Shown here: positions 20,971 to 29,424 of the stretch, piece after piece
Numbering within the stretch: the first letter of the stretch is position 1
How the letters are laid out: every line of letters begins with the position of its first letter
From: a virus
Reading direction: 5' to 3' (one strand)
Virus record (IMG/VR): IMGVR_UViG_3300032246_001721
Coordinates: 1-29,424 of that record
Length of the DNA stretch: 29,424 nucleotides
Program-made: the position numbers and the translations under genes
The notes under the pieces: model-generated
The model's database searches: none
Told to the model about the DNA's origin: nothing
Seen by the model: only the letters and a program-made list of their open reading frames with translations

Positions 20971-21297
20971 TTATTCTGGGCTAAAACTGCTTCCGCAACC
21001 GCAGGTGGTTACTGCTGTGGGATTTTTGATACTAAAAGTAGCACCGTATTGATCTTCTTTGTAGTCTACTTCTGCACCTTGAAGATAACCGCCGCTCATG
21101 CTATCAACCAAAACTTGAACTCCGTTGTAGTCTAAGTCCCAGTCATCTTCGTTTTTTACTTCGTCTAAGGTAAAGCCGTATTGCATACCGCTACAACCGC
21201 CACCCTGAACAAATACTCTAAGTTTAATATTAGGGTTATTTTCTTCGGCAATGATGTCTTTAATTTTTGCTACTGCGTTTTCGGTTATTGTAATCAT
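20971..21297 (-). CDS. ErpA/IscA-type iron-sulfur cluster carrier
   Basis: A 108-residue A-type Fe-S carrier. The three conserved cluster-binding cysteines are present: C35 in [11 protein letters not shown], and C99 and C101 in TTCGCGSSF. The tail is closest to ErpA/IscA of proteobacteria ([47 protein letters not shown]). The ATG at 21295-21297 overlaps the SOD stop (ATGA); a longer reading from 21312 lies inside the SOD gene and is unlikely. In bacteria the protein hands Fe-S clusters to apoenzymes. HesB-like genes are known from cyanophages, but here it is coupled to superoxide dismutase. Confidence 0.85.
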
Positions 21298-21836
21298 AGT
21301 CTTTCGTTGCAAATGTCCCAGTTAATAATTTTCCACATATTATCCAGGTACTTTTCTTTGTCCCATTGATAATCTAATGCCCAAGCGTGTTCCCACCAGT
21401 CCACGAGAACACAGATATCTGTTCTAACCTGATGATTTGGGATGGTTTTAATCGTGCCCGATGTGCTAAGATATACCCAGCCCGATCCCTGGATAGCCAT
21501 GGCCACTTTTTTAAATTCTGCCTTAAAGTCTTCATAGGTTTTAAAGTTGCTTTCAATTAGTTCTAGCACAGCACCTTTGGGGCGATTAGCACCCTTGGGT
21601 GGTTGCAATTGTGGAAAGAATTTGTTATGTAAAAATGATCCGGCACGGTTAAAATTGGCATTGCCTTCACCGGCATTGTAGCGTTTGGCATAGCCCTTGG
21701 CCAAGTGCTCATAGTGATATTCTATAGTCTCTTTGCTCATTACCGGATCCAAAGCCTTTTCACCATAGGGCAAAGGTGTGGTTTCCAGCTTGGCTGGTCT
21801 GGTACTGGCTTCAATTAGGTTGATTTCGTTACGCAT
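21294..21836 (-). CDS. Fe/Mn superoxide dismutase
   Basis: A 180-residue Fe/Mn-SOD family enzyme converting superoxide to oxygen and hydrogen peroxide. All four metal ligands are present: H41 (EYHYEH), H70 (SFLHNKFF), D146 and H150 ([13 protein letters not shown]). GSGWVYL (117-123) is also conserved. Second-sphere residues are mixed: a Gly lies where iron enzymes have the Gln of QVWNH, and NH replaces the NQ of manganese enzymes (residues 134-135), so metal choice is open. It is shorter than typical 190-210-residue bacterial enzymes. No signal peptide, so it acts in the cytoplasm. Fe/Mn-SOD genes are rare in phages. It overlaps the ErpA gene by 4 bases. Confidence 0.85.
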
Positions 21837-21844
21837 AATATTAC

Positions 21845-22063
21845 TTATCTACGTCGTGTAATACGCCCGCGAGTGAGATCGTATGGGCTGAACTCTAGTT
21901 CCACTATATCTCCAGCCAAGACTTTGATATTGTTCATACGCATACGTCCATTTAGATTGGCCAACACAGGCTTTTCAAAATTTTCAATTCGTACACGATA
22001 ACTGGTGTTAGGCAAAACTTCTTCGATTACACCTTCCATTTTTATAACTTCTTCTTTGGCCAA
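21845..22063 (-). CDS. infA: Translation initiation factor IF-1
   Basis: A 72-residue S1/OB-fold protein, the same length as bacterial IF-1. The alignment is continuous with E. coli IF-1: MAKEEVIKMEGVIEEVLPNT, then GRMRMNNIKVLAGDIVELEF and SPYDLTRGRITRRR. The start codon is TTG (22061-22063); the alternative ATG eight codons later would remove the conserved MAKE start. IF-1 occupies the ribosomal A site during initiation. Initiation factors have been reported in very large phages. An AGGAG lies 13 bases before TTG, longer than usual. The gene stands between the SOD gene and an SGNH-like gene, with a late-type box about 35 bases upstream. Confidence 0.88.
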   Translation of the reverse strand: MAKEEVIKMEGVIEEVLPNTSYRVRIENFEKPVLANLNGRMRMNNIKVLAGDIVELEFSPYDLTRGRITRRR

Positions 22064-23535: not shown

Positions 23536-23564
23536 ATTATAACAAATAACGAGTGTTTGGTCAA
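23536..23564 (-). promoter_or_regulatory. Sigma70-type promoter of 48-residue gene, leaderless spacing
   Basis: TTGACC (23559-23564), 17-base spacer ending ATTTGT, TATAAT (23536-23541), then six bases to the ATG. It shares the blocks GGTTGACCA and ATTTGTTATA with the promoters at 28055 and 28351. Confidence 0.8.
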
Positions 23565-23565
23565 C

Positions 23566-23880
23566 CTATTTGAACAAGATCATGGCCATGATAGTAGCCT
23601 GGATTATAAAGCCCAACCCAATGGTAACAATGTTTAGCATGTCTTTTAGCACTACAGCACGGGCAAACAGCAAACTCAACCCTGCCCACATGAACAGCAC
23701 AATATCCAAGTTAGGAACCGTGTCGCTGAGCCCTGTAAGCAAGGCAAACAAGGTAGGTATTGTGGCTGCGTGAATGATAACGACTGCAAGCCACCCTAAG
23801 GTTTCAGCACTTACCTTGGGCAAGTGTTGTTCTAACCAGGTCCTTAACAAATTTAAAAAAGTTTCTAATTTGATTATCAT
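23566..23880 (-). CDS. Three-helix membrane protein, holin candidate
   Basis: A 104-residue protein with three hydrophobic segments at about residues 28-50, 58-76 and 80-102 and a charged N-terminal helix (MIIKLETFLNLLRTWLEQHL). This topology fits a class I holin, which makes the lesion that lets an endolysin reach the wall or collapses the membrane potential that holds signal-anchored endolysins. Its start overlaps the stop of the SleB hydrolase by 4 bases, a common arrangement of lysis genes. No sequence family is recognised, so the holin role rests on context. Confidence 0.5.
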   Translation of the reverse strand: MIIKLETFLNLLRTWLEQHLPKVSAETLGWLAVVIIHAATIPTLFALLTGLSDTVPNLDIVLFMWAGLSLLFARAVVLKDMLNIVTIGLGFIIQATIMAMILFK

Positions 23881-24437
23881 ATTTTGTCCGCATAAAAAAT
23901 GTGTCTCCCAACTTTGGCCACTTGAGGTTTACCCCATTGTGGTTTGATATAATCTGCATGAAAATACAATGCAGTTTTCAAGCTGGGCAGTCGGAAACCT
24001 TCCAGCAAGACCTTTTTGGCCACATCCTCTGCTTCTTTCCATTGAGCAGGATAAATGGGCTTGATTCGGCTGGCACCATCACAGTTCCAGCTGAATTGAC
24101 AAATTACCTTGTCGTACACCACATTCTTTTGATAAACAACTCCGCAAATGTCCGATGCAAATTTTCCAGAATTCACACGGTTAATGGTGACCTGAGCCAC
24201 CGCTACTTTGCCTTCAAAAGGCTCCGTGGCACTTTCCCAGTAGATATTACGGGTCAAGCATTCTAATTGTTTGGTACGATCTGCTATGTTAGCAAATCCT
24301 TGTCGAGCCACTTCATTGGTGGCCTTGAGCGTGTCCAACTTGTTAGTGGTCACGGTGGTTACAGCAAATACTACCATTGTAAAACAAACTACTTTTACTG
24401 CTATACTACCTAAGTTGGATATTGAGATAAGTTTCAA
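23877..24437 (-). CDS. SleB-type cell-wall hydrolase with signal anchor (endolysin)
   Basis: A 186-residue protein. A hydrophobic stretch at about residues 10-31 (SIAVKVVCFTMVVFAVTTVT) without a good cleavage site looks like a signal-anchor-release segment. The C-terminal two-thirds match the SleB/Hydrolase_2 domain: TRNIYWESATEPFEGKVAVA with candidate catalytic E68, INRVNSGKFASDICGVVYQ, CQFSWNCDG and ALYFHADYIKPQW. These enzymes cleave the peptidoglycan glycan strand. The start codon is TTG (24435-24437), supported by AAGGAGA six bases upstream. It overlaps the holin candidate at its 3' end. A long structured region lies directly upstream, so a regulated leader is possible. Confidence 0.75.
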   Translation of the reverse strand: MKLISISNLGSIAVKVVCFTMVVFAVTTVTTNKLDTLKATNEVARQGFANIADRTKQLECLTRNIYWESATEPFEGKVAVAQVTINRVNSGKFASDICGVVYQKNVVYDKVICQFSWNCDGASRIKPIYPAQWKEAEDVAKKVLLEGFRLPSLKTALYFHADYIKPQWGKPQVAKVGRHIFYADKI

Positions 24438-24795
24438 TGTCTTCTCCTTGACGTAATACTGTACGCATCAGCAGAGGTGTCCAGGATGGACGCATTGACA
24501 GGTGGTTATAGAATGGAGACAGATCAAGACCTCGGGCCTCAGTGCCATACTCTCTAAGCGGTGCTTTGTTTCTCGCACGGCTCATACCATTTGTCAATGA
24601 AGAGGATTTCCGAAGTCCTCTTTTACTACTGCCTGCTTCACGGCACAGGCCAATCCGTTGTGGAGTAGATCTAGATTGTAATCCTCCGCTGTTCGAACAA
24701 ACGACAGCCTGGTTGTGTTTTCTACTCTCTAAAATACTTAGCTCGGGTGCAAAGTCCCGGGCTAATAACTCCAAATTTTGATCGGTTTTTACCAT
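24406..24795 (-). other. Doubtful open frame (129 codons) behind a strong promoter
   Basis: The frame stays open from an ATG at 24793-24795 to a stop at 24406, inside the SleB start. The predicted protein (LLARDFAPELSILESRKH, then SNSGGLQSRSTPQRIGL) is Ser/Arg-rich and unlike any family I recognise. A promoter starts transcription about five bases before this ATG, and no Shine-Dalgarno is present. The DNA is also dense in inverted repeats, which argues for an RNA or leader role. It is left as an open question, not called as a gene. Confidence 0.3.
24452..24764 (+). ncRNA. Candidate structured RNA or structured leader
   Basis: Eight stems were found by eye: 24452-55/24462-65; 24477-83/24487-93; 24493-505/24587-99 (13 pairs with two G-U); 24600-09/24613-22; 24631-35/24646-50; 24662-69/24721-28; 24688-93/24703-08; 24739-47/24756-64. 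In six of them the Watson-Crick core is extended only by G-U pairs of the plus-strand RNA; the minus strand would have A-C mismatches there. That favours a plus-strand RNA, although the only clear promoter (24807-24835) reads the minus strand. No tRNA, tmRNA or RNase P consensus was recognised. Alternatives are a structured leader of the SleB gene or a replication-related DNA element. Confidence 0.35.
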
Positions 24796-24806
24796 AATAT
24801 ACATAC

Positions 24807-24835
24807 ATTATAGCAAATAATACAATTTTAGTCAA
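24807..24835 (-). promoter_or_regulatory. Sigma70-type promoter upstream of structured block and SleB gene
   Basis: TTGACT (24830-24835), 17-base spacer, TATAAT (24807-24812). The predicted start is near 24800, giving a leader of about 360 bases before the SleB TTG codon unless the short open frame is translated. Confidence 0.7.
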
Positions 24836-28434: not shown

Positions 28435-29424
28435 TTACGCTACAGAACAGTCTATTAGATTTTCTTCAAAAATACGCCAACATTCGGCCCAGGTCCAACA
28501 TAAACTAGCATCTTCTACCGCCGCACGGTCTAGGGTCAAGCATTGTTGTACTGCTAACCGTAAATTGTCATTCAGGAACCCGGTCAAGCCAGGCTCAACA
28601 ATATCCTTGGGTCCAGGCACGGGATATGCCGCTACCGGAGTGCCGCAGGCTAGTGCTTCGATATTGACCACGCCAAATGTGTCAGCACGGCTGGGAAAAA
28701 CAAACACATCGGCTTGAGCATAGTAGCGAGCCAGGTCTGTGCCTTTTTTGGCACCCACAAATTCTATGTCAGGATATCTGCGTTCAAGTTCTTTGCGATA
28801 TGGCCCATCACCTACTACAATTTTGGTAGCACCGGGAATGTTTAGTTTGCAAAAATCATCAAGTCCTTTTTCGACACTTACACGTCCCACTGATAATAGC
28901 ACAGGATAGCCTGCTACAGTTTCTACTCGATGACTGCTGTTGAAGATGGTTCGGTCTACACCGCGAGTCCAAACACGTAGATTGGCGAATCCACGTGACA
29001 CTAAGTCTTGCTTAATGCTTTCTGTAGTGACCAATACCCTGTGACTGTTCTTATGGAACCAACGCAGGTACCACCAGGTCCAAGACTCAGGCACACAATA
29101 CATCCGGTTCAAGAACTTGGCAAAATCAGTATGATAACTAGTATTGTAAGGAATATGATTCCGCTCACACCACCACCTCGCAAATAAACCTACTGGCCCT
29201 TCGGTCGCAATGTGAATATACGACGGCTGTATCGCCTTAATCTTCGTACTAATCCCGTGTGGCCAGCAGATTTTAACTTCAGGATAACCAGGGCAAGCAA
29301 AATGAGGGAACTGCCTGGGATTAATATATACAATATGATGCCCGTTACTACTAGCGTGATCTTCCAGGGCTTTGAAAGTTGTGACCACGCCATTGATTTG
29401 ATCTGGGACATTATCGGTTACAAC
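28435..29424 (-). CDS. Family-4-type glycosyltransferase (GT-B), N-terminus beyond window
   Basis: At least 330 residues, in frame to the right edge. The partial N-terminus (VVTDNVPDQINGVVTTF) matches the IxTDxxxPQxNGVVxT opening of GT4 mannosyl- or sulfoquinovosyl-transferase-like enzymes. The C-terminal Rossmann domain has VLLSVGRVSVEKGLDDF, KIVVGDGPYRKELE, and the E-x7-E nucleotide-sugar site in SRADTFGVVNIEALACGTPV followed by GPKDIVEPGLTGF. It would transfer a sugar from a nucleotide donor to a lipid or glycan acceptor. Together with the methyltransferase, sulfotransferase-like and SGNH genes it suggests glycan modification. A terminator follows the stop. Confidence 0.85.
   Translation of the reverse strand, partial: VVTDNVPDQINGVVTTFKALEDHASSNGHHIVYINPRQFPHFACPGYPEVKICWPHGISTKIKAIQPSYIHIATEGPVGLFARWWCERNHIPYNTSYHTDFAKFLNRMYCVPESWTWWYLRWFHKNSHRVLVTTESIKQDLVSRGFANLRVWTRGVDRTIFNSSHRVETVAGYPVLLSVGRVSVEKGLDDFCKLNIPGATKIVVGDGPYRKELERRYPDIEFVGAKKGTDLARYYAQADVFVFPSRADTFGVVNIEALACGTPVAAYPVPGPKDIVEPGLTGFLNDNLRLAVQQCLTLDRAAVEDASLCWTWAECWRIFEENLIDCSVA

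Follow-up and report, generated by a model that had tools for sequence, protein, structure and literature searches.

What function is served by a compact block of inverted repeats lying directly upstream of a phage lysis gene? The question is raised by a 29,424-base virus record, analyzed here in full (the window), where the folded block is flanked by the gene for a 151-aa protein without known function and by a Hydrolase_2 endolysin gene, all three on the minus strand. A first-pass annotation had left three readings side by side, namely a plus-strand noncoding RNA antisense to the endolysin leader, a folded endolysin leader controlling the timing of lysis, and a replication element. The lysis genes concerned are the following.

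23877-24437, minus strand: endolysin, Hydrolase_2 (PF07486, domain match E 4e-24), with a TTG start at 24437
23566-23880, minus strand: 104-aa hydrophobic protein, holin-like by its apparent membrane segments and conserved position, with no Pfam or PHROG match

The dense inverted repeats are present as described, at about 24451-24762, and include the stem with distant arms (24493-24506 and 24586-24599, 14 nt, 86% complementary, 79 nt apart). As a conserved element, this 13-bp long-range stem was not supported: its ACCACC extension is limited to some members, being absent from many homologues, and its central 8 bp show no covariation. Folded against dinucleotide shuffles, the block performs better than its controls on both strands, with a z-score of -2.1 on the plus strand (1/100 shuffles as good) and -3.2 on the minus strand (0/100).

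The first relatives came from searches with the endolysin and with a 129-codon frame that overlaps the block, and further ones from DNA patterns built on the conserved core; most loci were found by RNA-pattern scans alone. A structured RNA of ~350 nt was identified on 50 IMG/VR contigs, making 51 loci with the window, in several diverged classes. Among the 50 contigs, L003 holds the 3′ end only, and L017 and L069 duplicate L016 and L059 in sequence, respectively. L079-L081 were excluded as chance pattern matches and L053-L057 as irrelevant loci. The class names were coined in this analysis, and the grouping was made without a tree.

Class I: window-like members
Subgroup Ib: L031, L037, L039, L045, L046, L052 and probably L061 and L064
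Class II: L059, L062, L066, L069, L075
Class III: L058, L063, L065, L067, L070, L071, L073, L076
Class IV: L077, L078, L082, L083
Single forms: L060, L068, L072, L074

Relatives with the RNA lie on contigs of up to 349 kb, suggesting that its carriers, which are uncultivated, are often large-genome phages. At the sensitivities used, it was found neither in 50,697 named phages (INPHARED; blastn, and tblastn of the frame) nor, by two patterns, in 84,980 cellular genomes. The parts of the window copy are given below.

24436-24799, minus strand: structured RNA, starting just past the presumed transcription start and reaching the start codon of the endolysin (25 homologues, covariation, 51 loci)
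24741-24762, minus strand: PA, a variable 5′ hairpin, paired in only 68% of cells
24663-24727, minus strand: PB, pairing 24722-24727 with 24663-24668 and enclosing PC; GAGUAG/CUACUC becomes GAACAG/CUGUUC in L031
24688-24708, minus strand: PC hairpin, with changes on both sides at 3/6 pairs and 100% of cells paired
24631-24650, minus strand: PE hairpin, with a conserved GUGCCG loop and changes on both sides at 4/6 pairs
24600-24622, minus strand: PF hairpin, a core element invariant in class I, with a near-invariant UUCGGAA-type loop
24555-24584, minus strand: PH hairpin, the most variable in sequence and the best in covariation (changes on both sides at 8/9 pairs)
24526-24540, minus strand: PI hairpin, GAGGCC-CGA-GGUCUU, a near-invariant core element conserved in sequence in almost all classes
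24479-24491, minus strand: PJ hairpin, with changes on both sides at 2/4 pairs and 100% of cells paired
24472-24657, minus strand: P0, a predicted long-range closing helix (24654-24657 with 24472-24475, CGGA/UCCG), from fold prediction and near-invariant

In an alignment of 25 homologues (A1), 94% of cells are paired according to a 61-pair structure with 11 helices, a percentage that is biased because the structure was partly drawn from the same sequences; for versions of the structure slid along the alignment, it is 48% or less. That origin does not explain the double changes, which affect 27 of the 61 pairs. They total 147 cells, whereas shuffles give 53 and slid controls at most 42. Compensatory changes are plentiful, and the block is a conserved structured RNA. 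The RNAalifold consensus fold has a z-score of -6.8 relative to column-shuffled alignments and reaches -47.0 kcal/mol on the minus strand vs. -36.1 on the plus.

The strand can be read from G-U pairs, which the first-pass annotation had found to extend six of its eight stems only in a plus-strand RNA. The two plus-only G-U pairs of the long stem belong to the window sequence; across the 25 homologues, the conserved helices contain 139 G-U cells when read as minus-strand RNA and 16 when read as plus-strand, a count that leaves out one pair that would favor plus, the C-A mismatch by which the PF loop of class I is closed. Judged by this comparison, the structured RNA belongs to the minus strand rather than to the plus. 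A plus-strand RNA antisense to the endolysin leader could appeal to the plus-strand fold of the window and to its few plus-only pairs, but the G-U bias and the covariation of the homologues contradict it, its consensus energy is the weaker one, and no plus-strand promoter in the block exceeds 9/12 matches. Nothing in the analysis supports a DNA replication element, and we regard both readings as extremely improbable.

Individual helices differ in how they are supported. Compensatory changes in PA occur in several members of class I, and its pairing is not kept in all. The PH stems are wholly different in classes II and III. PF, PI, and P0 fall outside the covariation test within class I because their sequences do not vary there; for PF, support comes from classes II and III, where the stem is rewritten (GGA/UCC, AUC/GAU, ACU/AGU) with the pairing kept and the loop unchanged. 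P0 is absent in L015. The near-invariant loops are UUCGGAA, UUGACAA, and GGCCCGAGGUCU. L015 and L072 both lack the PB-PE domain, which is therefore peripheral; as natural forms without PB-PE, these two would be useful minimal versions for structure work.

In 51/51 loci, the gene on the 3′ side of the RNA, directly adjoining and on the same strand, encodes a Hydrolase_2 endolysin or a second Hydrolase_2 paralogue; where a different hydrolase paralogue lies downstream (L031, L039, L045, and L046), the RNA is still found ahead of it. A hydrophobic, by position holin-like protein of ~100 aa usually comes next after the endolysin, in most loci. The gene on the upstream side varies between groups. 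More distant endolysins (52-60% identical, L020-L024) have another gene upstream and lack the RNA. In L031, L039, and L061, two successive Hydrolase_2 genes follow the RNA, and the product of the first has a hydrophobic, signal-like stretch at its N terminus.

At its 3′ end, the RNA meets the translation start of the endolysin gene through three elements.

24451-24471, minus strand: H-type pseudoknot supported by covariation, stem 1 pairing 24469-24471 with 24459-24461 and stem 2 pairing 24462-24466 with 24451-24455
24444-24449, minus strand: Shine-Dalgarno site AAGGAG of the endolysin, 1 nt past the pseudoknot
24421-24438, minus strand: start-codon hairpin AUUGA...UCAAU over the UUG start (pairing probabilities, 20 relatives)

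The gap between the end of the pseudoknot and the Shine-Dalgarno site is 0-7 nt. Stem 1 alternates in class I between GCUG/CAGU and GGUG/CACU and never loses its pairing, the variable pair being C-G in 13 sequences and G-C in 12, and stem 2 takes many sequences in the same class (e.g., GCGUA/UACGU, CGGUU/AACCG, CAGCU/AGCUG, CGAUC/GAUCG, and GAGCC/GGCUC). A pseudoknot of this kind can also be drawn for class IV and, less well supported against shuffles, for class III; the element is weak or ambiguous in class II (L059, L066, and L075). In the start-codon hairpin of class I, the UUG is paired with codons 5-7; its mean probability of being unpaired is 0.06 in 20 relatives vs. 0.44 after synonymous recoding, a contrast to be read with single sequences rarely significant alone and the relatives not independent of one another. 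Such hiding of the start codon extends to most of class I and is weaker in class IV; it was not seen in class III (L058, L063, and L067) and fails in L045, L064, and L075. An anti-Shine-Dalgarno pairing with the 3′ arm of PB, considered by eye, was dropped because it showed no covariation.

Transcription toward the endolysin would start from a promoter that the first-pass annotation had already called strong.

24807-24835, minus strand (read from 24835 to 24807): sigma70-like promoter TTGACT-17-TATAAT with an extended -10 (TGCTATAAT), 11/12 matches

The arrangement TTGAC-17-TATAAT is conserved in most class I relatives, and the usual -35 element is missing in L031, L037, L039, L046, and L052. 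In L037, L046, and L052, a TATAAT directly precedes the conserved ACUAAGUAUUUU instead, which may point to a shifted start site. The window contains no terminator-like site between the RNA and the endolysin gene, and no T4-type late promoter (TATAAATA). A second strong sigma70-like promoter (TTGACC-17-TATAAT) was noted at 23536-23564 on the minus strand, just past the holin-like gene.

Most likely, the structured RNA forms the start of the endolysin message and controls when the endolysin is made; put in coordinates, the minus-strand RNA 24436-24799 is probably the 5′ leader of the endolysin mRNA, controlling translation of the lysis cassette. Its place directly upstream of the endolysin in every locus, with no terminator between, argues that it acts in cis. 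Transcription would start at the promoter at 24807-24835 and run into the endolysin and holin-like genes, and the leader would fold into several hairpins ending in the compact pseudoknot that touches the Shine-Dalgarno site, with a further hairpin covering the endolysin start codon in the commonest class. So folded, the leader may hold endolysin translation low, the same sequence features being equally compatible with enhancement, until a later signal changes the fold and the endolysin is translated, so that lysis would not come too early. The signal could be ribosomes that translate the overlapping frame and stop near the endolysin start or, equally possibly, a protein or a small ligand or metabolite bound by the near-invariant loops. 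Of the earlier suggestion of a folded leader that times lysis, the leader part is favored by strand, promoter, position, pseudoknot, and hairpin, as the comparison of loci gives them, whereas timing, like repression and its trigger, is what we infer. Counted against the leader reading are a length of ~350 nt with near-invariant loops, which far exceeds what hiding one start codon would need, and the start-codon hairpin, pseudoknot, and PB-PE domain, each of which is missing or weak in some members.

The same size and near-invariant loops, together with modular peripheral domains, resemble those of large noncoding RNAs, and the RNA has its own promoter in class I. It could accordingly be a trans-acting noncoding RNA, processed off the transcript and merely sharing its promoter with the lysis genes. 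However, the RNA lies directly upstream of the endolysin in 51/51 loci and has its pseudoknot 0-7 nt from the Shine-Dalgarno site; moreover, no terminator marks its 3′ end, and no pattern scan listed a second copy on any contig. We consider this alternative rather unlikely.

A second layer is added by an open reading frame that runs through the whole RNA and would send ribosomes through the structure, which the leader model leaves unexplained.

24406-24795 (24804 at widest), minus strand: 129-codon frame, from a conserved AUG through the entire RNA, its stop overlapping the endolysin start

The AUG is conserved as UWAUGNNAAAA, a few bases past the presumed transcription start. Stops are absent from this frame (frame 0) in 15/15 class I members examined and 6/8 of class III, as well as in L015, L074, and L075. 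In classes I and III, the other two frames (1 and 2) average about six stops apiece; in addition, indels in L001, L004, and L006 restore frame 0. These features could be those of a small-protein gene whose mRNA is structured by chance. However, no purifying selection on its amino acids was detected by pN/pS, which is 0.96 in class I (other frames, 1.06 and 0.75) and 0.77 in class III (0.72 and 0.62), values like those of the other frames. The first-pass annotation had set purifying selection on this frame, with no compensatory base changes, against a folded RNA; the homologues have the compensatory changes and lack the selection. AlphaFold predicted no fold for the product (mean pLDDT 51, pTM 0.12), which has no Pfam or PHROG match, the C termini of the frame products are unrelated, and the frame is broken by stops in subgroup Ib, most of class II, and class IV, where the RNA is kept. 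A protein gene as the main function of the block was rejected on these grounds, and we hold it to be quite improbable.

A stop-free frame with no constraint on its amino acids is what would be expected if ribosomes entered at the 5′ AUG and stopped near the endolysin start, opening or closing it, the peptide itself being unimportant. For most of class I, the stop falls between +32 and -31 nt relative to the endolysin start, which it overlaps as UUGA in L001, L004, L015, and L068, and in nearly all lineages that keep the frame it lies within about 70 nt. Conversely, the RNA is kept in the classes where the frame is broken, and the stop lies 51-52 nt upstream of the endolysin start in class III and 68 nt upstream in L007 and L011. 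A translated leader of this kind is possible though doubtful; it is a sub-form of the endolysin leader favored above, and its probability overlaps with that of the leader as a whole. The upkeep of the frame in several classes suggests that translation through the RNA matters, and we read this as selection, in some lineages, for unbroken translation regardless of the peptide. It is the least understood feature of the RNA. An RNA fold that maintains an open frame but not the encoded protein is an unusual case.

The view that no known RNA class fits holds up: no Rfam 15 family reached its gathering threshold, nothing came near it (best chance match, greA, 18 bits against 60), and ARAGORN returned no tRNA or tmRNA. 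No description of the RNA was found in the literature on structured RNAs in viruses, of which our coverage was incomplete. Fremin and colleagues have reportedly published a large prediction set of structured RNAs in viruses, and an earlier computational listing is conceivable.

As a kind, the endolysin leader belongs with the structured leaders of phage lysis genes. Repression of a lysis gene by leader structure has a documented precedent in T4 gene e, encoding lysozyme, which has one short hairpin whose 5′ arm the use of late promoters removes (PMC3014915). Both leaders place structure at the translation start of a lysis gene, with the start region in a helix, and a delay of lysis is plausible for both. 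Here, in contrast, ~350 nt form about ten helices and a pseudoknot, the sequences are unrelated, and the RNA has its own sigma70-like promoter with no TATAAATA late promoter within a 5′ arm. The gene 32 leaders of T2, T4, and RB69 likewise contain an H-type pseudoknot, used there for translational control, which is placed 67 nt before the start and serves to nucleate gp32 binding (PMC3014915); here the pseudoknot abuts the Shine-Dalgarno site, and the gene is a lysis gene. GOLLD, ROOL, and OLE are large, highly conserved, structured ornate RNAs, some of them in phages (PMC12286853). The RNA described here is smaller than these, lacks an Rfam match, and occupies an mRNA-leader position in every locus found. 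As an RNA, it represents a new family absent from Rfam 15, larger and more elaborate than known phage lysis-gene leaders.

Pseudoknot riboswitches beside a Shine-Dalgarno site are also known, preQ1 and SAM-II being examples. The endolysin leader shares with this type a compact H-type pseudoknot touching the Shine-Dalgarno site and differs in its much larger aptamer-like part and in having no Rfam match. We tentatively suggest, at odds well short of even, a new class of large sensor RNA for the phage lysis decision, the conserved core of which would sense a ligand, a protein, or ribosome traffic on the overlapping frame and free the endolysin start via the pseudoknot. If true, this would give large phages an RNA-based lysis clock. 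How lysis is timed in phages with very large genomes is largely unknown, and a conserved RNA located solely before the lysis enzyme offers a testable handle.

Several neighboring genes were recorded. Not far downstream of the lysis genes, the window encodes a 72-aa translation initiation factor IF-1 (PF01176, E 2e-19; 21845-22063, minus strand), which is conserved in relatives (e.g., L001, 1953-2171). IF1 genes are already known in huge phages (PMC7162821). As a regulatory lead, the proximity of this gene to the structured RNA may be worth bearing in mind, a functional link being conceivable at most. The minus strand of the window also encodes an iron-sulfur cluster biosynthesis protein (PF01521, E 3e-20; 20971-21312) and a glycosyltransferase (PF00534, E 1e-22; 28435-29388). 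In L001, the neighbor of the IF-1 gene encodes a radical SAM protein (PF04055; 2174-3313), and cysteine-rich proteins resembling it were seen close to the lysis genes of L002 and L004.
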